Shown piece by piece: positions 29,997-46,062 of a DNA stretch of 64,000 nucleotides. The DNA comes from Trueperaceae bacterium (GTDB taxonomy: Bacteria > Deinococcota > Deinococci > Deinococcales > Trueperaceae). The notes under the pieces were generated by a model. That model saw only the letters and a list, made by a program, of their open reading frames with translations, had not been told where the DNA came from and ran no database searches. The stretch is taken from positions 124,001 through 188,000 of the forward strand of contig JAMLIB010000002.1 of the NCBI GenBank assembly GCA_023954415.1, in the 5' to 3' direction. How positions within the stretch are numbered: position 1 is the stretch's first letter; each line of letters begins with the position of its first letter. The position numbers were made by a program, and so were the translations under genes.

Positions 29997-31199
29997 CTAT
30001 CCGCTGACCACCAGTTCGGCCAGCCCCCGCGGGTAGAGCGACAACCGCTCGCACCCCTCCTCCGTCACGAGGACCGTGTCGGAGTGCCGGAACCCGGCCA
30101 GCCCGGGCACGTAGATGCCGGGCTCGACCGAGAGGATCATGCCGGCCCGTACCGGCGTATGGTCGTCCAGGTCGAGGAAGGGGTGCTCATGCCCCTCCAT
30201 GCCGAAGCTGTGCCCCGTGTGGTGGCGCAGGTACTCCCCCATGCCGAGCTCGTCTCTGATGAAGCCGGACACGTCGCGCTCGACGTCGGCGCAGGTCCGT
30301 CCGGGCCGTATCGCGGCGAAGGCGACGTCCTGGGCGGCGAGCATCGCCTCGAAGTACCGCCTGCAGGCCTCCGAAGGCTCGCCGAAGAACATCGTCCGCT
30401 CGAGCTCCGACTCGTAGCCGCCCACGACCCCGAACGCGCCCGTGACGATCACGTCTCCGCGCTGCAGGCCCTCGCCCCCGTGAAGCCCGTGCGGGTTGGC
30501 GGTGTTGCTCCCCCGGATGAACATCGCGTTCGCCGGCCGGCCCTCGCGCGCTTTCGGGACGTACCGGTCCCCCAAGTGCCTGAGCATCTCGGCCGTGGTC
30601 GCGAGGCTCGCCGCTTGGGAGACGGCCAGCTCGCTCGCGCCCTCGACCATGAGGTCCTGCATGGCGCGGTGCGCCCGGTCGCCCCAGACGCAAGCCTCGC
30701 GGACCAACGCGACCTCGGCCGGGCTCTTGACGATGCGCAGGTCGTCTACGAGCTCCAGGCGGGTCGCCACCGCGTGGCCGAGGACCTGGCTCAAGGACGG
30801 GCCGCGGTACCCCCACCTGTGCTCGTAACCGTCGAGGTCGGCCGCGAGGCGCGCGTTCGCCACTCCGACATCGACCAGCAAGTCGAGGAGGTGCAGCATC
30901 GGATGCTTGCCAGAACCCCCGCCCGGGTACTCCGGGTAGGTGCGCACGTGCTCGAGCTGCTTCGCCTGCTGGCGAACGTGGTCCACCTCGAGGCTCGGGA
31001 TCAGGATGTGCGGATCGCCGTCGACCGGCACCACGAGGACGACGGGCCGTTCCGTGGCCGCGAAGTGGAAGCCCGTGAGGTAGCTGATGCGGACCGGCCC
31101 GAACACGCACAGCGCCGAGAAGCCGGCGGCCTCGAGCCCGTGCTTGAGCGTGGCGACGCGCTCCTCGTGCTCGCGCGTGGAGATCTCGAGACGTTCCAC
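29997..31199 (-). CDS. M24-fold protein with altered metal site
   Basis: 400 aa, GTG start 4 nt after the dehydrogenase stop. Two-domain creatinase/prolidase architecture (N-terminal domain to about residue 165). Aligning to canonical M24 peptidases, the first Asp ligand is Gly (VTGAFG), the second is Glu (SELERT), the His is kept (HTGHSFG), the first Glu is kept (VEPGIY) and the last Glu is Ser (FRHSDT). Three of five ligands are therefore changed, so it may be a metal-free hydrolase like creatinase or an enzyme with another metal site. Last gene of an IclR/hydroxyacid dehydrogenase operon. Confidence 0.85.
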   Translation of the reverse strand: MERLEISTREHEERVATLKHGLEAAGFSALCVFGPVRISYLTGFHFAATERPVVLVVPVDGDPHILIPSLEVDHVRQQAKQLEHVRTYPEYPGGGSGKHPMLHLLDLLVDVGVANARLAADLDGYEHRWGYRGPSLSQVLGHAVATRLELVDDLRIVKSPAEVALVREACVWGDRAHRAMQDLMVEGASELAVSQAASLATTAEMLRHLGDRYVPKAREGRPANAMFIRGSNTANPHGLHGGEGLQRGDVIVTGAFGVVGGYESELERTMFFGEPSEACRRYFEAMLAAQDVAFAAIRPGRTCADVERDVSGFIRDELGMGEYLRHHTGHSFGMEGHEHPFLDLDDHTPVRAGMILSVEPGIYVPGLAGFRHSDTVLVTEEGCERLSLYPRGLAELVVSG

Positions 31200-31203
31200 G
31201 GCG

Positions 31204-32232
31204 TCAGTACATCCTCTCCGTGTCGAGCCGGTTCAGGAGCGGCTCGCCGGCCAGGTACCTTCGCAGGTTGTCGCAGAAGAGTTCGACCAGCCGCTCGTTC
31301 TCGCGCTCCCCCGTGCTGGCGGAGTGCGGGTAGATGGTGACGTTCGGATGCGACCAGAGCGGGCTGTCGGCCGGCAACGGCTCGACCGCGGCCACGTCGA
31401 GGGCGGCGTGTGCCAGCCGCCCGGAATCCAGGGCCGCCAGCAGCGCCGGCTCCCGTACGAGGGCGCCGCGGGCGATGTTGATGAGGACGGCCCCGGGCTT
31501 CATGGCCGCGAAGGCCGCCTCGTCCACCAGGCCCTCCGTCTGGGGCGTATGGGGCGTGATCAAGCACACGTAGTCGGCCTGCGCGAGAAGGTCGTGCAGC
31601 CGATCGGCGCCGTAGAGCGCGTCGAGCCCGAGCGCCGCGGCGTCCTGACCTTCGACATCGCGCTTGCTGGCGATCACGCGCATGTCGAAAGCCCGCGCCA
31701 ACCGGGCCACCTCCCTGCCTATGCGGCCCAAGCCGACGACCGCGAGCGTCTTGCCCGCGGCCTCGGCGGTCGTGAAGCGCCGCCACAGCCGTTGCGCCTG
31801 CTGCTCGCGCGCCAAGTCGGCGCACTTCACGTGTTCGAGGACGACCATCATCACGAACTCCGCGAGCGGCTTCGCGTGGACGCCGCTGGCGGTCGTGAAG
31901 ACTATGCCCGTCTCGTCGAGGCGCTGGCGCTTGACGAGTTGGCCTATGCCGGCGCTGGAGGCCTGCAGCCACAGCGCCCGCGGCGCCTTGCGCGCCCAGC
32001 CGGCCATGTCGGTGTAGTCGAAATCGAACAGGACCTCGGCTCCCGCGAGGAGCGAGTCCCAAGCGGCTTGATCGGCCGGCGTGCGCGTGAGGGGCGCGCC
32101 GACGTGGTCTGCCACGTACCGCGGCCGCGGCAACAGGTCGGGCCGGTAGTGGACGTTGATCCGCGGGTCGACGGCGCGCACGCGCTCGACCAACTCCGGC
32201 TCGAGGTAGGAACAGATCAGCACTTCGGTCAT
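31204..32232 (-). CDS. D-2-hydroxyacid dehydrogenase
   Basis: 342 aa, ATG with AGGAGA upstream. NAD-binding GLGRIG near residue 168, catalytic Arg in NIARGALV, Glu in VEPLP and His in YPHSAST, the full triad of the family. It reduces a 2-oxoacid to the D-2-hydroxyacid or the reverse with NAD(P)H. In an operon with a peptidase-like and a creatinase-fold protein, it probably handles the 2-oxo or 2-hydroxy acid released from an imported compound; the substrate is not identifiable. Confidence 0.9.
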   Translation of the reverse strand: MTEVLICSYLEPELVERVRAVDPRINVHYRPDLLPRPRYVADHVGAPLTRTPADQAAWDSLLAGAEVLFDFDYTDMAGWARKAPRALWLQASSAGIGQLVKRQRLDETGIVFTTASGVHAKPLAEFVMMVVLEHVKCADLAREQQAQRLWRRFTTAEAAGKTLAVVGLGRIGREVARLARAFDMRVIASKRDVEGQDAAALGLDALYGADRLHDLLAQADYVCLITPHTPQTEGLVDEAAFAAMKPGAVLINIARGALVREPALLAALDSGRLAHAALDVAAVEPLPADSPLWSHPNVTIYPHSASTGERENERLVELFCDNLRRYLAGEPLLNRLDTERMY

Positions 32233-32281
32233 CTGGCTCTCCTGGACGCTCGGAAGCCGTGCCTCGCCCTAGGGCCGCGGC

Positions 32282-33082
32282 TCACGGCTCACGCATCTTG
32301 TAGGCGAACTCGTCGGCGATCACACGAACCAACCTCGCCAACTCCCGGATACGTTCGTCCGTCATCCGCACGGACGGCCCCGAGATGCTGATGGCGGCGC
32401 TCACCGCCCCGGAGCTGCCACGCAGTCCGACCGCGATGCAGCGCGCGCCCTCCTCGTACTCCTCGTCGTCGAGCGCGTAACCCTGGCGGTTCACTTCCTC
32501 GAGGTGCCTGACCAGCGCCGCGCGAACGCCTATGGTGCTACGCGTGTACGACTCCAGGCCCGAGAAGCTCACGACCTCCTCGAACAGCTCCGGGCCGAAA
32601 TCGGCCAAGAAGACCTTGCCGGACGCCGTGCAGTGCAGCGGCGCCAGGGTCCCGACGGGCGTCGACACCCGCATGATGAGGGGCGACTCGACATGGTTGA
32701 GGTAGATGATCGACGTCCCGTACAGAGCCGCCAGGCTGGCAGACTCCTTGGTCTCGTCCACGAGCCGCTCCAAGTACGGCTGGGCGTGCTGGCTGAACTC
32801 GTGCTTCAGGAGCATGGCTCTGTTCAGGTCGGCTATGCCCCGCCCGACGCCGTACCGCTTGGACGTCTGATGCTGGGTGACGTAGCCGAGCGACATCAGG
32901 CTCTGCACGAGCCTATGCACCGTGCTCGCAGGCAGCTCGGCCGCGGTCGCCAGGTCCGTGATGGAGAAGGGGCCGCGCGAGCGCGCCAGTATCTCGATCA
33001 ACCTGAGGGCGCGCTCCACGGCGCGCACTGAGCCGGAGCGGTCGTGGGATCGATCGGAAACTACCACCCGCGCATCTTCCAT
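32282..33082 (-). CDS. IclR-family transcriptional regulator
   Basis: 266 aa, ATG 3 nt after the stop of the DUF885-like gene. Winged helix at residues 18-80 (TDLATAAELPASTVHRLVQSL) and effector domain with HCTASGKVFLADF. It lies within the minus-strand operon opposite the third peptide-type transporter, so it likely governs the divergent promoter region at 34286-34449 and senses the imported substrate or a product. Confidence 0.92.
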   Translation of the reverse strand: MEDARVVVSDRSHDRSGSVRAVERALRLIEILARSRGPFSITDLATAAELPASTVHRLVQSLMSLGYVTQHQTSKRYGVGRGIADLNRAMLLKHEFSQHAQPYLERLVDETKESASLAALYGTSIIYLNHVESPLIMRVSTPVGTLAPLHCTASGKVFLADFGPELFEEVVSFSGLESYTRSTIGVRAALVRHLEEVNRQGYALDDEEYEEGARCIAVGLRGSSGAVSAAISISGPSVRMTDERIRELARLVRVIADEFAYKMREP

Positions 33083-33085
33083 GAC

Positions 33086-34285
33086 TCAAACGAACTGCTT
33101 CACGCTCTGAACGGTGTTGAGGCTACCATAGAGGTACTCGACGAAGGCGCCGAGGCGGTCGGCCGGGACCCGTTCGCGGACTTCCCGGACGGCCTCGTCA
33201 CCGAACCAGTATGAGGCTATGAACGCCCCCCTGTAGGGGTGCGCCGCCATGCGCAAGCGCCCGTCGAGCCAAGCGGGTTGCGGGAAGGCCGTCTCCTGCA
33301 AGTACTCGCGCACGCGCACGGGCTCCCACCGCTCGCCCATCAGGTACCAGGCGGCGTTGGTCGCCGCCGCCGAACGCAAGGCTCTCAGGCGCATGTAGAT
33401 GGCGTCGTCGAGGGAGTCGACCCAATCGATGAGGAAGATGCCCTGGTCGCCGATGCCCTCCTGGACGGCGCCCGTCGAGAGGTTGGCCGCGCATAGCAGG
33501 GCGTCGGCCGGGCTGATCCCCTCGACCACGCGAGCGTGAGTGAACAGCATGTGAGTGGAGTGGCCGGGGAACACCTCATGCGCCACGAGGTGCTTGAGGG
33601 CCGAGCGCGTGAAGCTCAGGTCGACGTTGAGGTCCATGAGGCCGTCCCCGAAGCGGCACCTCGCCGTGTACGGCACGTCGGTCACGGGGTTCAGCGCCAT
33701 GTGGTAGTCGCCCGTCGGGAAGACGCGCGCGTCCGTCCGCTCCTGCGCCTCGGACATCAGCTCCTCGAACAGGGTGGCGACCTCCGCGCCGTCGACGGAA
33801 CGCTCCGCCTCCCAGCGCTTCGAGCGCTCGGCCAGGCTGCCGTGCAAGTAGCCGGACGAGGCGAGCATGGCGTCCAACTCGCTCACGAGCTCGCTCATCC
33901 GCTCGGGCGCGACCGGAGCCGCCGGTACGCCGACGAGGCGCTCGAGCTTCTCGGCGAAGGACAGCTCCTGCCCGCTGAACAGCTGAACCGCGGCCCTGAG
34001 CGAAGCGACGAAGCTGAGGAGGAGCATGCGCCGCGGACCATCCTCATACGCCTCGGCCGCGGCCTGTAAGGCGTCGATGCGCTCATGGGCCTCTTCCCAC
34101 CCCGCGATATCCGCGGCCTGCACCAGGCCCTTCCCGAGGTAGAGGGGCACGAGGCCTTCGGTATCCAGCGCTCCGGTCCCGGACGCCATCCCCCGCTCGA
34201 GGCGATCGATACCCATCGTCACCGACGCGAGTTCCTGTCCGACCTCACGGTCCTTGGCGGTCAGCCCGTCTCCCAGCTCGTGCAT
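33086..34285 (-). CDS. DUF885-like zinc metallopeptidase candidate
   Basis: 399 aa from ATG 34285, preceded by AAGGAG; the reading frame extends further upstream without support. Mostly helical. The motif HEVFPGHSTH near residue 250 matches the HExxPGH pattern of DUF885 proteins, a gluzincin-like fold related to carboxypeptidases, with a later acidic helix expected to give the third zinc ligand. Shorter than typical DUF885 proteins (about 550 aa). No signal peptide. First gene of the operon, divergent from the third transporter, whose own operon encodes another DUF885 protein. Confidence 0.75.
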   Translation of the reverse strand: MHELGDGLTAKDREVGQELASVTMGIDRLERGMASGTGALDTEGLVPLYLGKGLVQAADIAGWEEAHERIDALQAAAEAYEDGPRRMLLLSFVASLRAAVQLFSGQELSFAEKLERLVGVPAAPVAPERMSELVSELDAMLASSGYLHGSLAERSKRWEAERSVDGAEVATLFEELMSEAQERTDARVFPTGDYHMALNPVTDVPYTARCRFGDGLMDLNVDLSFTRSALKHLVAHEVFPGHSTHMLFTHARVVEGISPADALLCAANLSTGAVQEGIGDQGIFLIDWVDSLDDAIYMRLRALRSAAATNAAWYLMGERWEPVRVREYLQETAFPQPAWLDGRLRMAAHPYRGAFIASYWFGDEAVREVRERVPADRLGAFVEYLYGSLNTVQSVKQFV

Positions 34286-34349
34286 CTTTCGTCTCCTTCC
34301 CTCGGCTCCCACTGATTCTACTCTGCGGAATACCATATGCCACGCAGCG

Positions 34350-34378
34350 TTGACAATGCCCCCGCCGCTCTGTAAGCT
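34350..34378 (+). promoter_or_regulatory. Promoter of third peptide-type transporter operon
   Basis: TTGACA (34350-34355), 17-nt spacer, TAAGCT (34373-34378), 71 nt before the binding-protein ATG. The inverted half-sites ATGCCAC (34337-34343) and GTGGCAT (34413-34419) flank it, 76 bp centre to centre, and could be IclR contacts (weak). Confidence 0.6.
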
Positions 34379-34449: not shown

Positions 34450-36057
34450 ATGCATAGACTAAGGCGCTTCGTTTCCTGGACCGTCTGGTCCCTATGTCTA
34501 GCAATTCCGCTTGTCGGAATGGCACTAGCTCAAGAACGCGGCGGCACGCTTACGGTCGCACTCAACTACGACCTCGACACGCTCGACCCGTACGCGAGCG
34601 GCTTCCTCACGGACGTCCAGGCCACGTTCCTGGCGGGCCTCGTGGCCCCGGACCACGACGCCCAGTACGTTCCCGTCCTGGCGCAAGAGGTGCCCACGCT
34701 CGAGAACGGCGGCATCGTCCTGAGCGAGGACGGCACCAAGATGACGGTGACCTACCACCTCCGCCCCGGTCTCAAGTGGGCGGACGGCGAGCCGGTCACC
34801 TCGGCGGACGTGGTGTTCACCTGGGAGGCCGTGAAGGACCCGAACTACCTGGGCCCCGAGAAGGACGGCACCGCCGAGATCGAGCGCATCGAGACGCCGG
34901 ACGAGCTGACCGCCGTCGTCTACTACGACGGCGTGTACTCCGGCTTCAAGGCGTCGCTCTTCACTTACGGCGTGCTCCCGAAGCATGCCCTCGAGGGCAA
35001 GGACCTGAACAAGGACCCTTACTGGGACGCCCCGTTCGGCGCCGGGCCGTTCATGGTGACCGAGTTCAGCCGTGGCCAGCACGTCATAGTCGAGCGCAAC
35101 CCCTACTACTTCGAGACCGACGCCAACGGCGTTCAGCTCCCCTACCTGGATCGCATCATCTTCAAGATCATCCCGGACTCGAACACCCAGACGACGCAAC
35201 TCCGCTCCGGCGAGGTCGGCTTCGCCTACAACGTGCCCTACACCTCGTTGGCGACGCTGAGGAACACCCCTGACCTGGAGATCGTGAGCGCCAAGACGTT
35301 GGCCTTCCGTCACCTCACGTTCAACCTCAGGAACGAGCAGCTGGCCGACCTCGCCGTGCGCCAGGCGTTCGCGCACGCCGTCGACCGCACCGCGCTCAAC
35401 CGCGCGCTTGGCGACTACATGATCCCCATCGACACGTTCGTGGTGTCCACCTTCTGGTACACGAGCGACGACGTGCCCACCTACGGCTACGACCCCGAGC
35501 TCGCACGCCAGCTCCTCCTGGACGCGGGTTACACCCCCGGCCGGGACGGGATCATGGAGAAGGACGGCAAGCGCCTCTCGTTCGACTTCATGACGCAAGC
35601 CGGTCGGGCCGAGTACGAGACCGCGCAGCAGGTCCTGATCGCTCAGATGAAGGCCATCGGCATCGAGCTGAAGCCGGACAACAAGGCCGGCGCGGCGCTC
35701 TCCGAGGCGCGGCGCAGCGGCGGCTTCGACGTCTGGTACTCCGGTTGGATCACCCCCGCCGACCCCATCGACTCCTACGTCTCCTTCTACGCCACCGATG
35801 GCTTCAACAACGGCGGCGCCTACAGCAACCCCGACGCCGACGCCGCCCTCCACGCGGCGGCCGGCTCCCTCGACCCGGACGAGACCGCCGCCTACATGCA
35901 CGAGGCGCAGCAGATCGTTCTGACCGACCTGCCCTCCATCCCCCTCTTCGAGACCCCGTCCATCGTCGTGACGACGAACAAGCTCCAAGGGTTCGTCTCC
36001 AACCCGACCAACCAGACCAACTTCCGGCAAGTCGCGCCCTGGTGGCTCGCGAAGTAA
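34450..36057 (+). CDS. Family 5 (peptide-type) ABC solute-binding protein
   Basis: 535 aa, ATG with GAGGAGG upstream. Signal peptide to about residue 28 (GMALAQ), no lipobox. SBP_bac_5 marks: ALNYDLDTLDPYASG, VTYHLRPGLKWADGEPV, AFAHAVDRTALN. The family binds peptides but also glycans, opines, nickel or glutathione. Receptor of the transporter encoded next; the accompanying catabolic genes argue for a small, modified amino acid or sugar-amino acid ligand rather than ordinary peptides (inference). Confidence 0.92.
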   Translation: MHRLRRFVSWTVWSLCLAIPLVGMALAQERGGTLTVALNYDLDTLDPYASGFLTDVQATFLAGLVAPDHDAQYVPVLAQEVPTLENGGIVLSEDGTKMTVTYHLRPGLKWADGEPVTSADVVFTWEAVKDPNYLGPEKDGTAEIERIETPDELTAVVYYDGVYSGFKASLFTYGVLPKHALEGKDLNKDPYWDAPFGAGPFMVTEFSRGQHVIVERNPYYFETDANGVQLPYLDRIIFKIIPDSNTQTTQLRSGEVGFAYNVPYTSLATLRNTPDLEIVSAKTLAFRHLTFNLRNEQLADLAVRQAFAHAVDRTALNRALGDYMIPIDTFVVSTFWYTSDDVPTYGYDPELARQLLLDAGYTPGRDGIMEKDGKRLSFDFMTQAGRAEYETAQQVLIAQMKAIGIELKPDNKAGAALSEARRSGGFDVWYSGWITPADPIDSYVSFYATDGFNNGGAYSNPDADAALHAAAGSLDPDETAAYMHEAQQIVLTDLPSIPLFETPSIVVTTNKLQGFVSNPTNQTNFRQVAPWWLAK

Positions 36058-36071
36058 GAAGAACGACCGCG

Positions 36072-36099
36072 CCGCGAGGGGCCCCAACGCCCCTCGCGG
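36072..36099 (+). other. Intercistronic hairpin after binding-protein gene
   Basis: Perfect 11-bp stem CCGCGAGGGGC / GCCCCTCGCGG with a 6-nt loop, 14 nt after the stop and 22 nt before the permease GTG. No U-tract. Confidence 0.65.
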
Positions 36100-36121
36100 T
36101 CGCCCTCGCGCAAGGACGCCC

Positions 36122-37078
36122 GTGAACCTCACCACCTTCGTCGTCAAACGGGTTCTGTCGGCGGTACCGCTGCTCCTGGGCATCTCCGTCATCTTGTTCG
36201 GCGTGTTGCACTTGGCGCCCGGCGGTCCGCTCGACGTCTACGCCGACATCCCGGGTGTGAGCCAGGCGGCGCTGGACAACATCAAGCGCGAGCTCGGCCT
36301 CGACCAGCCCCTGCCCGTCCAGTACGTGAAGTGGCTGGGAGCGGCCGTTCGGGGAGAGTGGGGTTACAGCATCCGCACCGGCCGGGCGGTGTCCAAGGAC
36401 ATCCGGGAACGGATGCCGGCCACGTTCCTGCTCGGAGGCACGGCCTTCCTGTTGGCCCTGGCCACCGCTATCCCCCTGGGCGTCCTCAGCGCCGTCAGGC
36501 AGTACAGCGCTCTCGACTACACCTTCACGTTCCTATCTTTCATCGGCTTCTCCATGCCGATCTTCTGGCTCGCGCTCATGCTGCAATCGCTGTTCGCGGT
36601 CCACCTGCAGCTGCTGCCCTCGGCCGGCATGTACACGATCGGGGACGGCGGGTTGGCGGACAGGCTCCGCCATCTCGCGCTGCCCGCCTCCATCCTGGCG
36701 GTCGCGTACATGGCGAGTTGGGGCCGCTTCACCCGCGCCTCCATGCTGGACGTGTTCGGCCTCGACTACATACGGACCGCGCGGGCGAAAGGCCTCGGAG
36801 AGCGGGCGGTCATCTACCGCCACGCGCTGAAGAACGCGCTCGTCCCCGTGATCACGATCGTCGCCCTCGACTTCGCCGGCATGATCTCCGGCGCGGTCAT
36901 CACCGAGACGATCTTCGCCTGGCCGGGCATGGGACGCTTGTTCATCGAGTCGATGAACGGCCGCGACTACCCCGTCCTCATGGCCCTCCTGATGATCGGG
37001 TCGTTCGCGCTGGTGGCCATCAACCTGATCACCGACATCGTGTACTCCATCGTCGACGCCCGGATCCGCTATGACTGA
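36122..37078 (+). CDS. Dipeptide/oligopeptide ABC permease, DppB type
   Basis: 318 aa, GTG start. LHLAPGGPLDVYAD, LGLDQPLPVQYVKWL and EAA loop RAKGLGERAVIYRHALKNA identify the family; about six membrane helices. Overlaps the DppC-type gene by 8 nt, ensuring coupled translation of the heterodimeric channel. Confidence 0.92.
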   Translation: MNLTTFVVKRVLSAVPLLLGISVILFGVLHLAPGGPLDVYADIPGVSQAALDNIKRELGLDQPLPVQYVKWLGAAVRGEWGYSIRTGRAVSKDIRERMPATFLLGGTAFLLALATAIPLGVLSAVRQYSALDYTFTFLSFIGFSMPIFWLALMLQSLFAVHLQLLPSAGMYTIGDGGLADRLRHLALPASILAVAYMASWGRFTRASMLDVFGLDYIRTARAKGLGERAVIYRHALKNALVPVITIVALDFAGMISGAVITETIFAWPGMGRLFIESMNGRDYPVLMALLMIGSFALVAINLITDIVYSIVDARIRYD

Positions 37079-37940
37079 CCCCGTAGCCGCGCGGGCTCCC
37101 CGCACCTTCCTGGGCGAGGCGCTGAAGCGCTTCCGCAGGCACAAGCTGGCCGTCGCCAGCCTCGGGCTGCTGGTCGTCCTCTCCCTGGCCGCGGTGTTCG
37201 CTCCGTACCTGACGCCTTACACCTTCGACGGTCAGGACGTCGCCCTGCTCGGCATGCCGACCCCACCCAGCCTTGCCCACCCGATGGGAACGGACCATCT
37301 CGGCCGCGACAACGCGACACGCGTGCTCTACGGCGCTCGCGTCTCGCTCCTCGTCGGTCTCCTGAGCGCCCTGATCGCGACGCTCGTCGGCACGGTCGTC
37401 GGCGCGCTCGCCGGCTTCTACGGGGGCGCCACGGACAACGTCCTCATGCGCGCCACCGACGTGGTCCTGTCCATCCCCCTGCTGCCCCTCGTGATCGTCT
37501 TGTCGGGCTTCCTAAGACCCAACCTCTACCTGTTGGTCCTGATCATCGGCGTGCTCGGCTGGATGGGGACCGCGCGACTCGTTCGGAGTCAGTTCCTGTC
37601 GCTGCGCGGACGCGATTTCGTCGAGGCGTCGCGCGCGCTCGGCGGTTCCGGGATCAGGATCATGTTCCTGCACATGCTCCCGAACGCCCTGGGGCCGATC
37701 CTGGTCAGCACGACCCTCTCGGTCGGTGGCGCCATCCTGCTGGAATCGGCGCTCTCCTTCTTCGGCTTCGGCGTGCAGCCTCCGACACCGACCTGGGGCA
37801 ACCTCCTCAACTCGTCGCGGGACTGGCTTGACATCGCCCCCTGGATAGCCACGTTCCCCGGCCTGTTCATCCTCATGACCGTGCTCGCGGTCAACTTCCT
37901 GGGCGACGGGCTGCGGGACGCCTTCGACCCGCGCCTGTGA
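37071..37940 (+). CDS. Dipeptide/oligopeptide ABC permease, DppC type
   Basis: 289 aa, ATG inside the end of the DppB-type gene. MGTDHLGRDNATRVLYGARVS region, EAA loop RALGGSGIRIMFLHMLPNA, and LGDGLRDAFDP at the C-terminus. Completes the membrane channel; ATPase subunits must come from another locus. Confidence 0.92.
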   Translation: MTDPVAARAPRTFLGEALKRFRRHKLAVASLGLLVVLSLAAVFAPYLTPYTFDGQDVALLGMPTPPSLAHPMGTDHLGRDNATRVLYGARVSLLVGLLSALIATLVGTVVGALAGFYGGATDNVLMRATDVVLSIPLLPLVIVLSGFLRPNLYLLVLIIGVLGWMGTARLVRSQFLSLRGRDFVEASRALGGSGIRIMFLHMLPNALGPILVSTTLSVGGAILLESALSFFGFGVQPPTPTWGNLLNSSRDWLDIAPWIATFPGLFILMTVLAVNFLGDGLRDAFDPRL

Positions 37941-37995
37941 GCCCTTCAGGGCGTCCCCGCCGCCCGCACGCGGCCGCGGGGCGAAAGGAGTACCG

Positions 37996-39093
37996 GTGAA
38001 GATACTGATCGTTGGTTCCGGCGCCATCGGCGGCCTGGCAGGCGCGCACATGACGCGCGCGGGCCACGACGTCACCCTCGTCGATCGGTGGCGAGAGCAT
38101 GTCGAGGCGATGAACGCGGGCGGCCTCAGGTTCGACGGCGTCCGCGGCGAGTTCGTCATCCCCGTGACGGCCATCACCCCCGACGAGCTCCCGCGGCACG
38201 TGGCCGCCAAGGGTCCTCTCGAAGCCGTGCTGATAGCCACCAAGTCCCAGCACACGGAGGGCGCCGTGAGGCTGCTCCTCCCGCTGATGAGCAGCGAGAC
38301 GTTCATCGTCTCCTACCAGAACGGCTTCAACGAGCCCATGATCGCCGAGCTGTTGAGCGAGGCGGGGATCGGCGGCGAGGAGCGCGTCATGGGGTCGATC
38401 CCGAACTACGGCGGCGCGCTCGTCGACCCGGGGCACATCGAGTTCGTGCACGAGGGGCCCATCCAACTGGGCGAGATGACGAGGCAGCGGACGCGGCGGC
38501 TGGCCGACCTGGCCGAGGCGCTGTCCTCGCTCACGGAAGTCCAGCTCTCGGACAACATCTGGGGCCAGATCTGGGCGAAGGAGGTCTACTCGCAGCAGGT
38601 CGTCTTCAGCGCTCTGGCGGACGCGCGGATCCATGAGACGCTCGGCGTCGAGAGGTACGCGCGACTGGCGGGCGCGGTGGTGCGCGAGGCGCTCGAGATC
38701 GCGGAGGCTTGCGGCATAACCGTCGAGGCGTTCGACTTCTTCGATCCGGCCAACTACAAGCCCGCTACGGCCGCGGACACCCGCCGGCTCATCGCCAACA
38801 TCGACCACGCCATCTGGCTCCTGAAGAAGGACCAGAAGCCGTCGGAGCACGTCTTCAAGAAGCAGGGCTCCGGCATCTGGTGGGACATCGTCTACCGGAA
38901 GCGCGCCTCGGAGGTGGGCGCCATGAGCGGGGCGCTCGTCGAGTACGGGAAGGGCGCCGGGGCGGACACGCGCCTCGTGGAGAAGCTCGGCGCCATGATC
39001 CTCGAGATCGAGGCCGGCGAGCGAGAACTCGGCTTTCACAACTACGACGAGCTGGAGGCCTACGTCCGCGGTATCGGCAAGGAGCTGCCATGA
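37996..39093 (+). CDS. Ketopantoate reductase/ApbA-family dehydrogenase
   Basis: 365 aa, ATG with AAAGGAG upstream. N-terminal NAD(P) site GSGAIGG at residues 7-13 and the family lysine in IWAKEVYSQQ near residue 196. About 60 residues longer than PanE (about 300), with a distinct C-terminal segment, and placed in a catabolic operon instead of pantothenate synthesis. It likely oxidises or reduces a 2-hydroxy/2-oxo acid or an N-(carboxyalkyl)amino acid. It resembles opine dehydrogenase relatives in fold only; the reaction is open. Confidence 0.82.
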   Translation: MKILIVGSGAIGGLAGAHMTRAGHDVTLVDRWREHVEAMNAGGLRFDGVRGEFVIPVTAITPDELPRHVAAKGPLEAVLIATKSQHTEGAVRLLLPLMSSETFIVSYQNGFNEPMIAELLSEAGIGGEERVMGSIPNYGGALVDPGHIEFVHEGPIQLGEMTRQRTRRLADLAEALSSLTEVQLSDNIWGQIWAKEVYSQQVVFSALADARIHETLGVERYARLAGAVVREALEIAEACGITVEAFDFFDPANYKPATAADTRRLIANIDHAIWLLKKDQKPSEHVFKKQGSGIWWDIVYRKRASEVGAMSGALVEYGKGAGADTRLVEKLGAMILEIEAGERELGFHNYDELEAYVRGIGKELP

Positions 39094-40214
39094 GCGCGAA
39101 GAGACTCGGAGTCGGCGTCCTCGGCGCCCATGCCTGGGCCGAGAAAGCCCACCTGCCCGGCTACGCCGCCTACGACAGGGCGCGGCTCGTCGCCATCTGC
39201 GACGTGGTGCCCGAGCGCGCCAACGCGCTGGCGGCGCAGTTCGGGGTCGAGCGCGTCTACACGGACCCGGCCGATCTGATCGCCGACCCGGACGTGGAGC
39301 TGGTCGACGTGTGCACGCCAACGGACACCCACCTGCCCCTCAGCCTCGCGGCGATAGCGGCGCGCAAGCACGTGCTCTCGGAGAAGCCGCTCGCCCGCGA
39401 TGCGCGCGACGCCTTCGCGGCGGCGACCGCCGCGGCGGAGGCCGGGGTGCGCACCAAGCTCGGGTTCACGTTCCGCTACTCGCCCGCCGTGAGGCAGCTG
39501 AAGCGTTGGATAGACGACGGCTCTCTCGGGGAGATCTTCCACGTGCACGGTTTCGAGCAGAACAGCCAGTTCCTCGACCCCGACTTCCCCATCCGCCAGG
39601 TCGAACCCGGCGCGGATTGGAACACCCTCCTGCCGTCGAGCATCGTCGGTTACGGCTCCCATCTCCTCGACCTCATGCGGTGGTGCGCGGGCGAGTTCGG
39701 CAGCGTCGCCGCCACGATGCGCAACTTCATCCCCGAGCGCGTCGTGCGCGGCTACGAGGGGCGGCGGCGCATCGGCATCGAGGACGGCACCGTGGCCACC
39801 GTGGAGTTCGCCACCGGCGCCCACGGCGTGCTGCAGACGTCGTACATCGCCGTGGGCAACTACCCCGGCGTCGAGTTGCGCGTGTACGGCTCTAAGGGTG
39901 CGGCCGTCGCGCGCTTGATCAGCGAGTTCGGCGTCGCGGAGACGCTCCACCTCGCCACGGCGGACGAGGTCGAGTTCCGCAAGGTCGACCTGCCCGCCGG
40001 CGCGCTGCCCCCCGGCACCACCCTCAACACCCCGTGGCCGGAGCTGTACTACCGCAACCTCGTGCGCCACTTCGTCGACGAGATCCTGGACGACACGAGC
40101 CCGGAGTGCACCTTCCTGGACGGCGCGAAGAGCCAGGAGCTCGTCAACGCCATCGTCCTGGCCAGCCAGGAACGCCGCTGGGTCGACCTGCCGCTCTACG
40201 GCGCGTCGGAGTAG
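39090..40214 (+). CDS. Gfo/Idh/MocA-family oxidoreductase
   Basis: 374 aa from ATG 39090 (ATGA overlap with the preceding gene). N-terminal Rossmann domain with GAHAWAEKAHLPGY in place of the usual GxGxxG, EKPLARD at about 97-103 carrying the family Lys-Pro, and C-terminal beta-sheet domain with GYGSHLLDLMRW (the His-Asp region). These enzymes oxidise or reduce a sugar, cyclitol or amino-sugar hydroxyl with NAD(P). One of two such enzymes in this operon. Confidence 0.88.
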   Translation: MSAKRLGVGVLGAHAWAEKAHLPGYAAYDRARLVAICDVVPERANALAAQFGVERVYTDPADLIADPDVELVDVCTPTDTHLPLSLAAIAARKHVLSEKPLARDARDAFAAATAAAEAGVRTKLGFTFRYSPAVRQLKRWIDDGSLGEIFHVHGFEQNSQFLDPDFPIRQVEPGADWNTLLPSSIVGYGSHLLDLMRWCAGEFGSVAATMRNFIPERVVRGYEGRRRIGIEDGTVATVEFATGAHGVLQTSYIAVGNYPGVELRVYGSKGAAVARLISEFGVAETLHLATADEVEFRKVDLPAGALPPGTTLNTPWPELYYRNLVRHFVDEILDDTSPECTFLDGAKSQELVNAIVLASQERRWVDLPLYGASE

Positions 40215-40216
40215 GC

Positions 40217-41830
40217 GTGGCCCTGCAAGACCTGACCCGCAGGTACCTCGACCTCCACCTGGCGCTGCGCCCGGTCGACAGCACCTTCATGGGCTACGAG
40301 GACCGGGATCACGAGCTCCCTCCCGCCACGCCCGCGGCCTTGGAGCAGGAGACGTCGGAACTCGCCTCGCTGGCGCTCGAGCTGCGGCGTCAGCCGGCGG
40401 GCGCCACGGCCGAGGACCGGATCGCGCGCGCGGCCCTACATGGAGCCGTGCAGCACGCCCTGCGCGAGAACGAGGCGCGTCCGCGGCTCGCGAACCCGGC
40501 TTGGTACACGGGCGAGGCGGCGTTCGGGCTCATAGCGTTGCTCCTCCGCACGCCGTCCGGCCACGTGGGCGACGCGCTCAGGCAGCGCGTAGAAGCACTG
40601 CCGGCGTTCCTCGCAGCCGGCGCGGCGCGGCTGGCGGGCGCGGCAGCGCCGGCCGATTGGGTGACGCGAGCGAAGCTCGAGGCGCAGGCCCTCGAGCGCC
40701 TGCTCACGCACGGCCTTCCACTCCATGCGCTCGCCGGCTCGGTGCCTCCCGATGCGGTGGCGGCGGCCTGCAAGGCCGCCGCTGCGTTCGCCTCGTCGTT
40801 GGCGCCGTCCGCCGACTCGGACCCGGCCGCACCGGCGGGCTATCTCGCCCACCTGTTCGCCGAGGTGCATCAGCTGCCCATGCCCGTGAAAGAAGCCGAG
40901 GCGCTGGCCCTCGAGGGGTTCGAGCGCGCCAGGGCCGCGTTGGAGGCCAAGGCGCGCGCGGCCGACCCGGAGGAGTCCTGGCGGGCGCAACTGGCGAGGC
41001 TCGAGGGCGATCACCCGCCCCTACCCGACGTGATCGCGACCTACTCCCGCCTGCACGAGCGGGCGATGGCGGAGGCGGAGCGCGCCGGCCTGGTGACCCC
41101 CGCGCTCGGTTACGGGCTGCGGTTCGCCTACCTGCCCGAATGGGCGCGCGGCGTGGCGCACGAGCTCTACTTCCTCTTCTACCGGTCGCCGGCGGCCATG
41201 AGCCCCGGTAGCGCCAGCCCGTACTGGGTCTTCGCCCCTGGGGCCGACCTCGACGCCTACCTGCGAGGCCAGAGCTACGCGACCATCAAGCTCACGCACG
41301 CGGTTCACCACGGCTCGATCGGACATCACACGCAGAACGCGCGCGCCAGGGAGTCCGCGGTATCGCTCGGCAGGCTGGCGGGCACCGACTGCGCGTCCGG
41401 GATCGCCCTCCTCGCGGGCGGCACCATGATCGAGGGGTGGGCATGCTACTCGCAGGACCTGCTGCTCGAGGCGGACGGCTTCTACACGCCTGCCGAGGAG
41501 TTGCTGCTCGCGCATGCGGAGCTCAGGAACACGGCCATGTGCCTCGCTGACATCCGGCTCCATACCGGGGTCTGGAGCCTCGCGCAGATGCGCGCCTTCT
41601 ACGAGGACGAGGTGGGGATCGGTTCGCAGCGCGCGTGGACCGAGACGACTAGGAACTCCATGTGGCCGAGCACGAGGTCGATGTACTGGCTCGGTACGCG
41701 AGCCATCAGGCAGTTCCGGCGTGACGTCGGAGGCGAAGCGCGGCGGTTCCACGACGCCCTGCTGGCGTTCGGCTCCGTTCCCGTCTACCCCGTCGGCGAG
41801 GAGCTGCTGCGCGCGAAGGAGAGAGCATGA
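40217..41830 (+). CDS. DUF885 protein with degenerate zinc motif
   Basis: 537 aa from GTG 40217, 2 nt after the preceding stop. Overall DUF885 layout: N-terminal YLDLHLALRPVDSTFMGYEDRDHE, WYTGEAAFGLIALL, and a C-terminal helical domain with MIEGWACYSQDLLLEADG. Where the family has HExxPGHxxQ, this protein reads V-HHGSIGHHTQ: the catalytic Glu is His and the Pro is Ile. The downstream EGWACY Glu is kept. Either a non-peptidase enzyme using the same scaffold or an altered metal site. Its GTG and the ATGA at its end tie it tightly to its neighbours. Confidence 0.82.
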   Translation: MALQDLTRRYLDLHLALRPVDSTFMGYEDRDHELPPATPAALEQETSELASLALELRRQPAGATAEDRIARAALHGAVQHALRENEARPRLANPAWYTGEAAFGLIALLLRTPSGHVGDALRQRVEALPAFLAAGAARLAGAAAPADWVTRAKLEAQALERLLTHGLPLHALAGSVPPDAVAAACKAAAAFASSLAPSADSDPAAPAGYLAHLFAEVHQLPMPVKEAEALALEGFERARAALEAKARAADPEESWRAQLARLEGDHPPLPDVIATYSRLHERAMAEAERAGLVTPALGYGLRFAYLPEWARGVAHELYFLFYRSPAAMSPGSASPYWVFAPGADLDAYLRGQSYATIKLTHAVHHGSIGHHTQNARARESAVSLGRLAGTDCASGIALLAGGTMIEGWACYSQDLLLEADGFYTPAEELLLAHAELRNTAMCLADIRLHTGVWSLAQMRAFYEDEVGIGSQRAWTETTRNSMWPSTRSMYWLGTRAIRQFRRDVGGEARRFHDALLAFGSVPVYPVGEELLRAKERA

Positions 41831-42711
41831 CCGCTTTCGGTGGCGTTCACACCATCATGCCCACGCCGTTCACTGAGGACGGCGCGCTCGACCTGGCCAG
41901 CCTCGAGACGCTGACGGAGTTCCTGATCGGCCGCGGCGTAGACGGCCTCGTGGTGCTGGGCGTGCTGGGAGAGGCCCCCAAGCTGTCGCAACGCGAACAG
42001 GACGAGGTGATAGCGACGACCGTGAAGGCCGCCGCCGGCCGGGTGCCGGTCTTCGCCGGCGCGGGAGCGGGCGGCACCGATCTCGCGGTGGAGCGCGGCA
42101 AGAACGCCGTGGCGCGCGGGGCTGGCGGGCTCCTGGTCGCGCCGCCGCCCGTGCAGAACGACGCCGTCATCTACGAGTACTACCGGCGCATGGACGCCGC
42201 CATCGACACTCCGATCATCCTTCACGACTACCCGGCGGCGACGGGCGTGAGCATGACCGTGCCGCTCGTGGCGCGGATGCACGACGAGCTGCGGAACGTG
42301 AGCGTGATCAAGCTGGAGGACACGCCCAGCGTTCCGAAGGTCTCGGCGCTGCGGGCCATGGGGTGCGAGATCGGCATCGTCGGGGGGCTCGGCGGGCTCT
42401 ACTTCCTCGAGGAGCTGGAGCGCGGAGCGAACGGCATCATGACCGGCTTCTCGTATCCCGAGGTCCTGGTCGCGGTCTACCGGGCGTTCGTCGGCGGAGA
42501 CGTCGCGGCCGCGCGCCGGACCTTCTACGCCGCCTGCCCGCTCATACGCTACGAGTTCCAACCCGGCATCGGCCTGGCTCTGCGCAAGGAGGTCTACCGC
42601 TCGCGAGGCGCGATCCGCAGCGCCCACGTGCGGCATCCCGGCGCCCAGATCGACCCGGTCGCCCAGCGCGAGCTCGCCAACGTGATCGCGCACGTCTGGC
42701 CGAACGGCTGA
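41827..42711 (+). CDS. DapA/NAL-family Schiff-base lyase or synthase
   Basis: 294 aa, ATGA overlap with the DUF885 gene. TIM barrel of the N-acetylneuraminate lyase/dihydrodipicolinate synthase family; Schiff-base Lys in VIKLEDTP near residue 160, Tyr in LHDYPA near residue 136, and GVLGE in place of the DapA GTTGE. The loss of the DapA threonines speaks for a catabolic aldolase (2-keto-3-deoxy sugar acid, 4-hydroxy-2-oxo acid or similar) rather than lysine synthesis. Confidence 0.88.
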   Translation: MTAFGGVHTIMPTPFTEDGALDLASLETLTEFLIGRGVDGLVVLGVLGEAPKLSQREQDEVIATTVKAAAGRVPVFAGAGAGGTDLAVERGKNAVARGAGGLLVAPPPVQNDAVIYEYYRRMDAAIDTPIILHDYPAATGVSMTVPLVARMHDELRNVSVIKLEDTPSVPKVSALRAMGCEIGIVGGLGGLYFLEELERGANGIMTGFSYPEVLVAVYRAFVGGDVAAARRTFYAACPLIRYEFQPGIGLALRKEVYRSRGAIRSAHVRHPGAQIDPVAQRELANVIAHVWPNG

Positions 42712-42715
42712 AGGC

Positions 42716-43708
42716 GTGGCCCGGACCGTCGTCCGCTGGGGCGTGCTGAGCACGGCCAACATCGGGGCCAAGGCCGTGGCGCCGGCCATCGCGCGCTCGG
42801 CGAACGGCCGCCTGCTGGCGGTCGCCAGTAGGAGCGCCTCCAAGGCCGAGGAGTACGCGGAGCGCCTCGGCGGCGAACGCCACTACGGGTCGTACCAGGC
42901 TTTGCTCGACGACCCCGACGTCGACGCCGTCTACATCCCCCTGCCCAACAGCCTGCACCTGGAGTGGACCCTCAAGGCCCTCGAGGCCGGCAAGCACGTG
43001 CTATGCGAGAAGCCCCTCGCCCTGTCGGCGGCGGAGTGCCTGAGCATGCACGCCGCGGCCAGGCTCTCGGGACGCCGCCTGATGGAGGCGTTCATGTACC
43101 GCTTCCACCCCCGCATCGCCGAGGCCCGGGCGCTCATCGCCGGCGGGGAGCTCGGGGCCATACGCCTGATCCGCGCCGCCTTCGGCTTCACGGTGGCCGA
43201 CCCGACCAACATCCGCCTGCGTCCGGAGCTGGGCGGCGGCTCGCTGATGGACGTGGGCTGCTACTGCGTGGACGTGGCCCGGCTCCTCCTGGCGGCGGAG
43301 CCGGACGAGGCCGAGGCGCGCGCCGTCTGGTCGGGCTCGGGGGTGGACGTTCACCTGCTCGGGCAACTCCGCTTCGCGGAGACGTACCTGCGCTTCGACT
43401 GCTCGCTCGACACCGTGCGGCAGGAGTACGTCGAGGTCGTGGGAACCGAGGGCCGCATGCGCCTGGACCAGGCGTTCCTGCCCGGCACGGCGCCGACCGC
43501 CATCGACATGATGACCAGGGCCGAGGGCGAGAAGACGATCGCCGTTCCCGGAGTGGACGAGTACCAGCTGATGGTCGAGCGCTTCGCCGAGGCGGTCCTC
43601 ACCGGCACCGAGCCGCACTACTCGGCCCTGCATGCGGCCGCGGGCATGGCCGCCATCGAGGCCCTGTACGCGTCGGCCCGCGCCGGGGGCGTGCCCACGC
43701 GGGTCTAG
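42716..43708 (+). CDS. Gfo/Idh/MocA-family dehydrogenase
   Basis: 330 aa, GTG start 4 nt after the DapA-family stop. Resembles glucose-fructose oxidoreductase/1,5-anhydrofructose or trans-dihydrodiol dehydrogenase-like members: STANIGAKAVAPAI at the N-terminus, YIPLPNSLHLEW, CEKPLAL, EAFMYRFHP and GGGSLMDVGCYCVD. Uses NAD(P). Last gene of the eight-gene operon; the sugar-type relatives suggest that the transported compound contains a sugar or polyol part. Confidence 0.88.
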   Translation: MARTVVRWGVLSTANIGAKAVAPAIARSANGRLLAVASRSASKAEEYAERLGGERHYGSYQALLDDPDVDAVYIPLPNSLHLEWTLKALEAGKHVLCEKPLALSAAECLSMHAAARLSGRRLMEAFMYRFHPRIAEARALIAGGELGAIRLIRAAFGFTVADPTNIRLRPELGGGSLMDVGCYCVDVARLLLAAEPDEAEARAVWSGSGVDVHLLGQLRFAETYLRFDCSLDTVRQEYVEVVGTEGRMRLDQAFLPGTAPTAIDMMTRAEGEKTIAVPGVDEYQLMVERFAEAVLTGTEPHYSALHAAAGMAAIEALYASARAGGVPTRV

Positions 43709-43844: not shown

Positions 43845-44786
43845 TCAACCCTCGAGCCAAGCTACGTCCGCGGCGGACAGACGCTGCTCCGACAACGCCT
43901 TCAGCTCGCCGTACTCGTCCCCCGACCGGCAGCCGACGATGGCGTGCGTGTCGCACGCTTGGCTGAGCACGTAGAGGAGCGCTGTTTGCGGCGCGCTCAG
44001 ACCGCGCCGGGCACCGAGCTCCGCTGCGCGCGCGCGGCGCGCGGCGTTGGCCGGCGTGTCGAACACCCTGACGGCCGCGTTCAGGCCGGTCGCCGTGGCG
44101 GCTCCCGGCCCGGGAGCGACGAAGTAGCCCATCGCCAGGCTCGACCAGGCGAGGAGGGGTAGGCCCGTGGCCGCGTAGAAGGCGCGTTCCGCGACCCCGT
44201 CGGCGCCGGAGACGCTCACGCAGCCGGGCCAGGGCGACTCGGTCGGCACGGCGAGGCTGAAGTGCGGGCTGCTGGCGCTAAGAGGCTCGTAACCCCGGGC
44301 CTCGGCGTACGCGTTGGCGGCCGCGATGCGCTCCGAGCGCCAGTTCGAGACGCCGTACGCGTTGACCAGACCGCGCGCCCGCAGGCCATGCAGTACCTCG
44401 ACGACCCCGCCTACCGGCACGCTCTCGTCGTCGCGGTGCAGGAGGTAGAGGTCGGCGAAACCGCAGCCGAGGCGCTCGAGCGAGCCGGTGATGTCCGCCT
44501 CGATGTCCGCCTCCGTGACCCGGTTGCGGCCGCCGTACGGGTGGGCGCCCTTCGTGATGATGAAGAGTTCGTCACGGCCGCCGCGCTCCGCCAACCACCC
44601 CCCGAAGAGCGCCTCGCTCCTGCCGCCGCCGTAGTTCTCGGCCAGGTCGAAGGTCCGGGCACCGGCGGCCACCACGTCGTCGAGGAGCGCGCTCGCCTGC
44701 GACTGCGCCAGCGGCGAGATCTGGGCGGTCCCCTGGATGATGCGGTCTGCTCTCTTACCGCCTGCGACCAGGCTCACGCGCAACAC
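43845..44786 (-). CDS. Aldo-keto reductase
   Basis: 313 aa from GTG 44786 (GTG 44777 also possible). Tetrad visible as Asp and Tyr in TFDLAENYGGGRSE, Lys in IITKGAHP and His in LYLLHRDD. Belongs to the group with YajO/Tas-like N-termini (GTAQISPLAQSQ). Reduces or oxidises a sugar aldehyde or lactol. Transcribed with the IolE-like gene 25 nt upstream and divergent from the mannosidase operon, under the shared operator region. Confidence 0.85.
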   Translation of the reverse strand: MLRVSLVAGGKRADRIIQGTAQISPLAQSQASALLDDVVAAGARTFDLAENYGGGRSEALFGGWLAERGGRDELFIITKGAHPYGGRNRVTEADIEADITGSLERLGCGFADLYLLHRDDESVPVGGVVEVLHGLRARGLVNAYGVSNWRSERIAAANAYAEARGYEPLSASSPHFSLAVPTESPWPGCVSVSGADGVAERAFYAATGLPLLAWSSLAMGYFVAPGPGAATATGLNAAVRVFDTPANAARRARAAELGARRGLSAPQTALLYVLSQACDTHAIVGCRSGDEYGELKALSEQRLSAADVAWLEG

Positions 44787-44811
44787 CCCGCGGGCTCGAG
44801 ATTGCAGCGCC

Positions 44812-45855
44812 TCATAGCCCCAACCCCCGCAAGAACTCGCGGTTGCGCCCCGCGCTCTCCTTGGGCGTGCCCATGCCTGGCAGCACGTCCTGCTCGACCG
44901 TCAGCCAGTCCGAGTAGCCCCTCCGCCGCAGCACGTCGAGGACGGCCGCGAAGTCGACGGTGCCCTTGCCGAGCTCCGCGAACACGCCAGCGCGCACGGC
45001 CTGACGCAGGTCCCACCCTGCGCGCCTGGCGCGCTCCGCCACGGCGCCGTCGACGTCCTTGAAGTGGACGTACCGGACGCGGTCCCAGAAGCGCTCCAGC
45101 CCGACGACCGCGCTCTGGCCGTCCTCGTCCGGCTTGGCGCTGCCGTACACGTGGTGGCCCGTGTCGAACACTAGACCCATGAGGTCGGGGTCCGTGAGGT
45201 CGAGGAGCCGCTCCACCTCGTCCGGCGTCTCGACGAAGCCGGCGCAGTGGGGGTGGAACACGGTGCCCAGACCCGTCTCGCCCGCGACGATCCTGGCGAC
45301 CTCCTCGGCGTTGGCCGCGAACACCTTCCACTCCGACCGGGACAGGCCGAGCTCCGGCGTGACGCGCCCGGCGTTGGCGGCGCGCACCGGATAGAGGCCG
45401 TCCGCGTCGGCCAGCACGAGGTAGGGCCGGCGCGGTCCGCGCTCGGCCTCCGCCAGGAGGGCGGCGAGCCGCACGAGGCGCACACGCGCGCTCGCCGCCA
45501 CGCCCCGTTCCCGCAGGGTGACACCGGCGAAGGCTCCGAGCAGCGTGAGCCCACGGCCGGCCAACTCGTCGTGGAGCGCCGCCGGGTCCGTCGGCATGTA
45601 GCCGTAGTCCCCCAGCTCCGTGCCGACGTAGCCCGTCTCGACGAGCTCGTCGAGCATGCGGGCGTAACCGGTGCCAGGGTCGCCCTGGCCGATCAGCCCC
45701 CACGAGCACGGCGCGTTGGCGACCCGGATATCCGGCCGGGCGTCCGGTCCGAGGCCCGCCTGGGCGTCCGCCCATGCCCCGGGTCGGACCCCGGACCGAC
45801 CCGGGCCCGAGCCTCGCGGCGGCGTCAGCGCTCCACTTTCACGGTCGTCTTCCAT
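44812..45855 (-). CDS. IolE-like TIM-barrel sugar isomerase/epimerase
   Basis: 347 aa from ATG 45855 with GGGAGG upstream. Xylose-isomerase-like AP-endonuclease-2 fold with the metal-binding acidic/His segments HPHCAGFVETPDE, GLVFDTGHHVYG and VHFKDVDG, ending WLTVEQDV with the last Glu. Closest in style to inosose dehydratase and sugar-phosphate epimerases. It differs in sequence from the true iolE at 60771-61715. Roughly 50 N-terminal residues (Gly/Pro-rich) precede the barrel and may be disordered or a mis-set start. Confidence 0.82.
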   Translation of the reverse strand: MEDDRESGALTPPRGSGPGRSGVRPGAWADAQAGLGPDARPDIRVANAPCSWGLIGQGDPGTGYARMLDELVETGYVGTELGDYGYMPTDPAALHDELAGRGLTLLGAFAGVTLRERGVAASARVRLVRLAALLAEAERGPRRPYLVLADADGLYPVRAANAGRVTPELGLSRSEWKVFAANAEEVARIVAGETGLGTVFHPHCAGFVETPDEVERLLDLTDPDLMGLVFDTGHHVYGSAKPDEDGQSAVVGLERFWDRVRYVHFKDVDGAVAERARRAGWDLRQAVRAGVFAELGKGTVDFAAVLDVLRRRGYSDWLTVEQDVLPGMGTPKESAGRNREFLRGLGL

Positions 45856-45949
45856 CGGCCCTCCCAACGGGCAGCAGCGGTGGGGACGAGGCGGGCGGCG
45901 CGACCTCGCGAAGCCCCGCCCGCTGTGTCCCTCCAGTGTGCGCTCGTCC

Positions 45950-45978
45950 TTGACAGGCGAGCGGTCGCTTCCTAATAT
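45950..45978 (+). promoter_or_regulatory. Consensus sigma-70 promoter upstream of lacI-mannosidase operon
   Basis: TTGACA (45950-45955), 17-nt spacer, TAATAT (45973-45978), the best promoter in the window. It points toward the LacI gene and leaves a leader of about 240 nt containing both operators. Confidence 0.7.
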
Positions 45979-45991
45979 CGAACCAGTTCGA
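45978..45991. promoter_or_regulatory. LacI-type operator O1
   Basis: TCGAAC-CA-GTTCGA, perfect 6-bp arms, starting at the last base of the -10 box. Same core (CGAACC..TTCG) as the second site. Confidence 0.65.
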
Positions 45992-46062
45992 CAAGCAGTG
46001 TGAGGCCGAAGCAACGGAGGCCAAGGGACGTGAAGTCGTCGTGCGCATGCAACCTACCTCAC

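Follow-up and report, generated by a model that had tools for sequence, protein, structure and literature searches.

Units that join a transporter to catabolic enzymes are a known kind of bacterial system, and several described cases resemble parts of the locus considered here. In Staphylococcus aureus, the ABC transporter that imports glutathione is encoded together with Ggt (PMC10355420), and the same pairing of an ABC transporter with GGT is found in several of the alphaproteobacterial loci compared below; the portions of that article drawn on here mention no ketopantoate-reductase-like (KPR), Gfo or DUF885 protein, and the present cluster carries no GGT. At the level of single proteins, levoglucosan dehydrogenase (6a3f) and one of the enzymes of the cluster (Gfo1) are members of one wider Gfo/Idh/MocA group, creatinase (1chm) and the ectoine hydrolase DoeA share the M24 fold with a second, and the DUF885 family (PF05960; 3iuk, 3o0y, 3u24) shares its fold with the full-length protein D885 and with most of a shorter one, DUFx. 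These proteins are encoded in a 64,000-nucleotide stretch of a Trueperaceae genome of 3.2 Mb, 96% complete (positions 124,001 to 188,000 of contig JAMLIB010000002.1, our contig C2; hereafter the window). On balance, we favour the view that their genes, with those of a peptide-type binding protein (SBP) and two permeases (P1 and P2), would form a dedicated uptake and catabolism system for one compound of peptide-like nature (a pseudopeptide or a conjugate of an amino acid). Both the order of its steps and their chemistry are much less certain. The literature searches found no match for this import-and-degrade unit, as the sequence-only reading of the locus had anticipated, and those combining KPR with DUF885, or with creatininase, GGT, M32 or opine, returned nothing relevant.

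The proposal draws support from the conservation of the cluster. KPR orthologues were sought by conserved peptide patterns in 84,980 species genomes, which yielded 37 loci from two phyla, the Deinococcota and the Alphaproteobacteria; the addition of seven plasmid loci brought the set to 44, several of them truncated by contig ends. Gfo1 is present in 43 of these loci, DUFx in 40, SBP in 38, D885 in at least 36 and a LysR regulator in 30, followed by a D-2-hydroxyacid dehydrogenase (HADH) or GhrA-like protein (25), a VOC protein (15), GGT (10), an IclR regulator (9) and the M24 protein (8). The nearest named record with the same cluster is a Trueperaceae metagenome-assembled genome (L015), and the alphaproteobacterial order is DUFx-KPR-Gfo1-D885. 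Orthologues of D885 and of DUFx (the latter at 58% identity or more) occur in exactly the same six of 101 relatives; this, with the recurrence of the core in 44 loci, exceeds what chance would give. The pairwise distances of seven shared proteins are correlated (r 0.78-0.95 over all loci, 0.74-0.96 within the Alphaproteobacteria), values to which common host ancestry contributes. The genes of the cluster coevolve, and KPR-Gfo1-D885 is its minimal core. A single pathway for five enzymes, KPR, two Gfo/Idh/MocA oxidoreductases, the DUF885 protein and a DapA-family lyase, had been suggested from the sequence; the neighbourhood search upholds this for KPR, Gfo1 and the DUF885 protein, but not for DapA and the second oxidoreductase (Gfo2), which stand behind D885 in the window and in a single further genome, of the same genus.

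With regard to gene layout, Pfam profiles and coordinates bear out the eight genes and the families originally named at 34450-43708 (Table 1). The tight junctions ascribed to them are found from KPR onward (KPR-Gfo1, 4-nt overlap; Gfo1-D885, 2-nt gap; D885-DapA, 4-nt overlap; DapA-Gfo2, 4-nt gap) and between the permeases, which overlap by 8 nt, but not at SBP-P1 and P2-KPR, where gaps of 64 and 55 nt intervene. The eight-gene boundary itself was too narrow: it overlooked a divergent arm at 29997-34288 that encodes DUFx, which is a second DUF885-like protein, together with the IclR regulator, HADH and the creatinase-like M24 protein. This arm is part of the unit, giving at least 12 genes in total. 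Even in the Alphaproteobacteria, orthologues of DUFx and of a hydroxyacid dehydrogenase are found together with the transporter, KPR, Gfo1 and D885. A terminator scan of the unit returned no more candidates than were obtained in shuffled sequence.

Table 1. Features of the cluster and its control region (positions in the window)
Feature	Position	Strand	Evidence or remark
M24, creatinase-like 'pita-bread' protein	29997..31199	-	PF00557 E 1.4e-41
HADH, D-2-hydroxyacid dehydrogenase	31204..32232	-	PF02826 E 6e-54
IclR-family regulator	32282..33082	-	PF01614/PF09339; conserved in Deinococcota loci
DUFx, short protein of DUF885 fold, motifs HEVFPGH and EGIGDQ	33086..34288	-	Structure matches; without Pfam hit
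Operator-like inverted repeat O1, ATTCTACTCTGCGGAAT	34315..34331	.	One of only two genome sites; conserved
Probable plus-arm promoter, TTGACA-N17-TAAGCT	34350..34378	+	Read by eye from intergenic sequences
SBP, peptide-type substrate-binding protein	34450..36057	+	PF00496 (SBP_bac_5) E 5.4e-81
Operator-like inverted repeat O2, ATTCCGCTTGTCGGAAT	34504..34520	.	Within SBP signal-peptide codons
P1, ABC permease	36122..37078	+	PF00528 (BPD_transp_1) E 7.5e-41
P2, ABC permease	37071..37940	+	PF00528 (BPD_transp_1) E 4.5e-32
KPR, long ketopantoate-reductase-family oxidoreductase, core	37996..39093	+	PF02558 E 1e-31 (ApbA/ApbA_C)
Gfo1, Gfo/Idh/MocA oxidoreductase, core	39090..40214	+	PF01408 E 1.7e-24
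D885, full-length DUF885 protein, core	40217..41830	+	PF05960 E 1.4e-38; 134.2 bits against gathering threshold 32.4
DapA-family aldolase or lyase, GVLGEAPKL subfamily, lineage-specific addition	41827..42711	+	PF00701 E 1.9e-37
Gfo2, second Gfo/Idh/MocA oxidoreductase, lineage-specific addition	42716..43708	+	PF01408 E 3e-25

The catalytic Lys and Glu of the PanE fold family are retained in KPR: K195 and E306 are invariant in an alignment of seven sequences (82% mean identity) and align with the matching stretches of 8wl3. The protein nevertheless scores below the PanE subfamily cut-off (131.5 bits vs 141.35; NCBIfam TIGR00745). As the sole strong ApbA match in the genome, it could be taken for the PanE of pantothenate synthesis, placed here by accident. 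Such a coincidence is barely credible, for in four same-genus genomes the ApbA matches are weak and partial, the best reaching 30 bits, so that a PanE of this type would not be needed there, and every fetched locus has KPR together with the cluster. More distant KPR relatives, about 35% identical, lie in another setting: in five of the seven annotated plasmid loci inspected they are accompanied by creatininase, dipeptidase, M32 carboxypeptidase and a further peptide ABC transporter. This sister cassette, from plasmids of Deinococcus, Sagittula, Sulfitobacter and Alloyangia (L057, L058, L074, L076, L077, L078), is apparently undescribed and also holds an isoaspartyl peptidase as an alternative to the dipeptidase. 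It likewise combines an Opp-type transporter, a long KPR, SDR or RraA, and a metallopeptidase of M2/M3/M32-like fold; it differs by having M32 for the two DUF885-fold proteins, creatininase for the creatinase-like M24 protein and GntR for IclR, and by the absence of Gfo1.

Gfo1 keeps the Lys of the EKP motif and the His, while the Asp of DxGxH is replaced by Gly (VGYGSH), and this Gly187 is invariant in 19 of 19 aligned orthologues. Its nearest named relatives are levoglucosan, scyllo-inositol and C-glycoside (DgpA) dehydrogenases, although it falls far below the equivalog cut-off of levoglucosan dehydrogenase (145.9 vs 650 bits; NCBIfam NF052479). These affinities, with the resemblance of Gfo2 and DapA to sugar-acid enzymes, would be in keeping with an opine-, Amadori- or glycosylated-amino-acid-like compound, the sugar part of which would be handled by Gfo1, Gfo2 and DapA and the amino-acid part by the remaining enzymes. 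We consider this unlikely, as Gfo2 and DapA lie outside the core, the usual Asp is missing in Gfo1, and the NCBIfam scans gave, for the proteins scanned, no match to a characterised enzyme of opine or Amadori catabolism (opine dehydrogenase or oxidase, deglycase).

The loss of the catalytic Glu in D885, already seen in the sequence-only reading, is confirmed by the alignment of its HHGSIGHH with HEGVPGHH of 3iuk: His occupies the Glu position of the gluzincin motif HExxPGH in 27 of 27 orthologues, with the flanking His pair and the Glu of EGWACY retained. Since this substitution is invariant while the zinc-ligand positions are kept, D885 looks like a specialised protein rather than a decayed one. 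Its predicted structure (pLDDT 93.0) matches 3u24, 3o0y and 3iuk with Z scores of 29.4-31.4 and rmsd values of 2.9-3.8 across 496-508 residues. DUFx, the start of which was set at 34288, behind a Shine-Dalgarno sequence (the longest open reading frame starts at 34336), is shorter by about 130 residues. No Pfam profile detects it, as a single sequence it matches no solved structure, and its profile gives only a weak match with 3u24 (E 0.024); the fold was therefore needed to place it. The AlphaFold2 model (pLDDT 89.3) matches 3o0y, 3iuk and 3u24 at Z 23.8-26.8 (rmsd 3.5-4.2, 345-363 residues), and the next structural matches after the DUF885 entries are M3, M32 and ACE metallopeptidases and MATCAP (Z about 9.8-14.7). 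The catalytic Glu is present in DUFx, as HEVFPGH, in the window and in most orthologues. It is tempting to see D885 and DUFx as working partners whose chemistry is other than peptide hydrolysis, with D885, through a zinc site in which His is fixed at the place of the Glu base, performing a new C-N or C-O cleavage or an isomerisation on the imported compound; this is a speculative idea, and we judge it rather unlikely to hold. A literature search for DUF885 alone returned no paper naming the family in its title or abstract, and none that, judged by title, concerns a function in this setting.

The M24 protein is closer overall to prolidases (136 bits) than to creatinase (81 bits) and scores far under the DoeA cut-off (74.5 vs 613 bits). 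The five metal-ligand positions that read D, D, H, E, E in prolidase 1pv9 read G, E, H, E, S in the window protein, which hence lacks several prolidase metal ligands, a trait in common with creatinase and DoeA, and departs from the five-ligand set of the two-metal creatinase/prolidase family. The replacements are invariant in nine aligned Deinococcota sequences, and the gene adjoins that of IclR or HADH in other Deinococcota loci. From these alignments, the altered catalytic positions of D885, Gfo1 and M24 look like marks of specialisation, not of degeneration. In Deinococcus sp. KNUC1210, the M24 protein is annotated as two genes (L008:2276-3498) and the KPR match falls into three pieces (L008:9807-10847), owing to frameshifts or sequencing errors.

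The end of the plus arm is of a different nature. The DapA threonines are gone, as noted originally, with GVLGEAPKL in place of GTTGE; 3dz1, the closest structure, bears a similar GILGEAPKL, so that the loss is a trait of the subfamily. The protein lacks the Thr-Thr pair of the synthase and scores 117.4 bits against the 206.15 of the NCBIfam equivalog, whereas the Schiff-base Lys and the Tyr of the fold family are present (HDYPAATGV and VIKLED align with LQDYPLTLSV and MLKHED of 3dz1). It may be asked whether two modules stand side by side, the transporter, DUFx, KPR, Gfo1, D885, HADH and M24 doing one job and DapA-Gfo2 being an unrelated sugar-acid module joined to the transcript. The restricted occurrence of DapA behind D885 speaks for this, as do its orthologues in 33 of 101 relatives, mostly genomes without the core, the best NCBIfam model of Gfo2 (XylDh_Gfo6, xylose dehydrogenase) and the characterised structure closest to DapA, L-2-keto-3-deoxyarabonate dehydratase. 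On the other side, DapA is tightly spaced and overlaps D885, and Deinococcus carries RraA, SDR and an M29 aminopeptidase at the place of DapA-Gfo2, the SDR being 56-65% identical to the one paired with DapA in other Trueperaceae. Two separate modules are thus a minority possibility, to be taken seriously. The presence of RraA at the same place, together with the shared SDR, would tie the aldolase to the same chemistry, and we infer that one aldolase may have been replaced by another, DapA or RraA, within the same pathway. The DapA-SDR pair occurs in three of six inspected relatives, one of them with hydantoinase/oxoprolinase genes and a peptide ABC transporter next to the pair, and the window genome keeps the same SDR elsewhere (57% identical). 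In a Trueperaceae genome other than that of the window (L098:1-10008), the neighbours of a DapA-SDR pair are SBP, permeases, hydantoinase A and B and a protein resembling AstE/AspA. Next to the cluster in the window, a separate carbohydrate locus extends over 43845-50007; its minus-strand part encodes an aldo-keto reductase and a xylose-isomerase-like TIM barrel, and its plus-strand part a LacI-type regulator and a large alpha-mannosidase-like open reading frame, both named by eye from the translation.

The transporter comprises the binding protein and both permeases of a family 5 (peptide/opine/nickel) ABC system. The closest structure to SBP is the peptide-binding protein AppA (1xoc); it also scores with NikA, with the model of the staphylopine-binding CntA and with the murein-peptide-binding MppA. 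A dipeptide-type recognition of the alpha-amino group by SBP was judged by eye only and was not used. No ATPase gene for the transporter is found within the cluster, and the best two ATPase pairs of the genome (C1:449413-451406 and C12:2371-4510) each sit inside a complete Opp-type system, so that neither is specific to the cluster. It is likely that the cluster transporter shares its ATPases with another Opp-type system. The scores with NikA, CntA and MppA, and a TonB receptor in the Lichenicola locus and in one Sphingomonas locus, might suggest the uptake or recycling of a metallophore or a peptidoglycan fragment instead of growth on a nutrient. The conserved neighbours, however, include no gene for siderophore synthesis or for cell-wall biosynthesis or recycling, and the regulators among the conserved genes are of the IclR or LysR type, none being Fur-like or MerR-like, so this alternative appears highly improbable.

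The control region between the two arms suggests that the unit is probably controlled by its own IclR protein. The motif ATTCYRN5YRGAAT occurs in exactly two places in the genome (four strand hits for two sites), O1 and O2, while the reversed control pattern has 0 matches genome-wide. Operator-like sites with 0-2 mismatches are present in 11 of 11 Deinococcota loci, with one or two upstream of SBP and a further one or two within its first codons; at one mismatch or fewer, there are five matches across 578 kb of alphaproteobacterial loci. The probable plus-arm promoter is situated between O1 and O2, and TTGACA-N17-TAnnnT is found at the same position in L015, L016, L017, L018 and L055. A promoter-like site on the minus strand lies at 34343-34315, and O1 overlaps its -10. 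The binding of IclR to O1 and O2 is what this arrangement would predict.

As for the substrate, the sequence-only reading had proposed a compound in which a sugar or polyol is linked with an amino acid or oxo acid, a guess that leaned on DapA and Gfo2, neither of which is core; its sugar part is weakly supported. The accessory genes found beside the core in some loci and missing in others are those for M29 and M17 aminopeptidases, RidA, GGT and a class I aminotransferase. Together with the nearness of SBP to AppA and the neighbours of the more distant KPR relatives, they favour a peptide-like compound in which an unusual hydroxy or oxo acid is included; by way of Gfo1, a part resembling a cyclitol or a sugar is possible. 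Mycosporine-like amino acids, brought to mind by the recurring lichen, cyanobacterial-mat and marine sources, were dropped, as the literature search gave no paper on their catabolism and the genes give no test.

We propose that the bidirectional unit, with its own IclR, would take up and catabolise one specific peptide-like compound, imported by SBP, P1 and P2 with the energy of ATPases borrowed from another Opp-type system. The binding of an inducer would lift IclR off O1 and O2, which lie on either side of the plus-arm promoter and overlap with that of the divergent arm. In the cytoplasm, the compound would be processed by DUFx, with its intact HExxPGH, and by D885, with its Glu-to-His exchange, and the creatinase-like M24 protein may break another C-N bond. 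KPR and the 2-hydroxyacid dehydrogenase would interconvert 2-hydroxy and 2-oxo acids, Gfo1 could oxidise a cyclitol- or sugar-like hydroxyl, and an interchangeable end module (DapA here, RraA in Deinococcus), with SDR or Gfo2, might split a 4-hydroxy-2-oxo acid.

Several observations weigh against this proposal. HN replaces HE in six DUFx orthologues, all from Rhodobacteraceae, and hydrolysis by DUFx is hence not guaranteed; DUFx is not near KPR, within the fetched DNA, in L026, L044 and L048, and would be dispensable in some hosts. Metals, metallophores, haem and sugars are likewise among the ligands of the SBP family, and the regulator in the Alphaproteobacteria is LysR, not IclR. The operator motif was spotted by eye in eleven Deinococcota loci before it was tested across the genome, which is why its uniqueness in the genome and its fixed position constitute the real test. 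The six loci with HN (L031, L035, L037, L043, L046, L050) all fall in one branch of the concatenated tree, and in five of them the transporter in the fetched DNA has diverged (its SBP is about 29% identical) and comes with its own ATPases.

At a more general level, although a transporter with catabolic enzymes is a familiar arrangement, the new element is this composition, which has no described pathway in the literature searched. Loosely annotated genes become a defined, conserved and probably self-regulated pathway unit, common to Deinococcota and Alphaproteobacteria and often plasmid-borne. The occurrence of DapA or RraA with a shared SDR offers a natural experiment that may be used to deduce an intermediate. 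DUF885, a family with three solved structures for which the searches gave no assigned function, gains a metabolic context for functional tests; if D885 and DUFx do act as partners in a chemistry other than peptide hydrolysis, the cluster would define a new catabolic pathway and provide the first function for a branch of DUF885.

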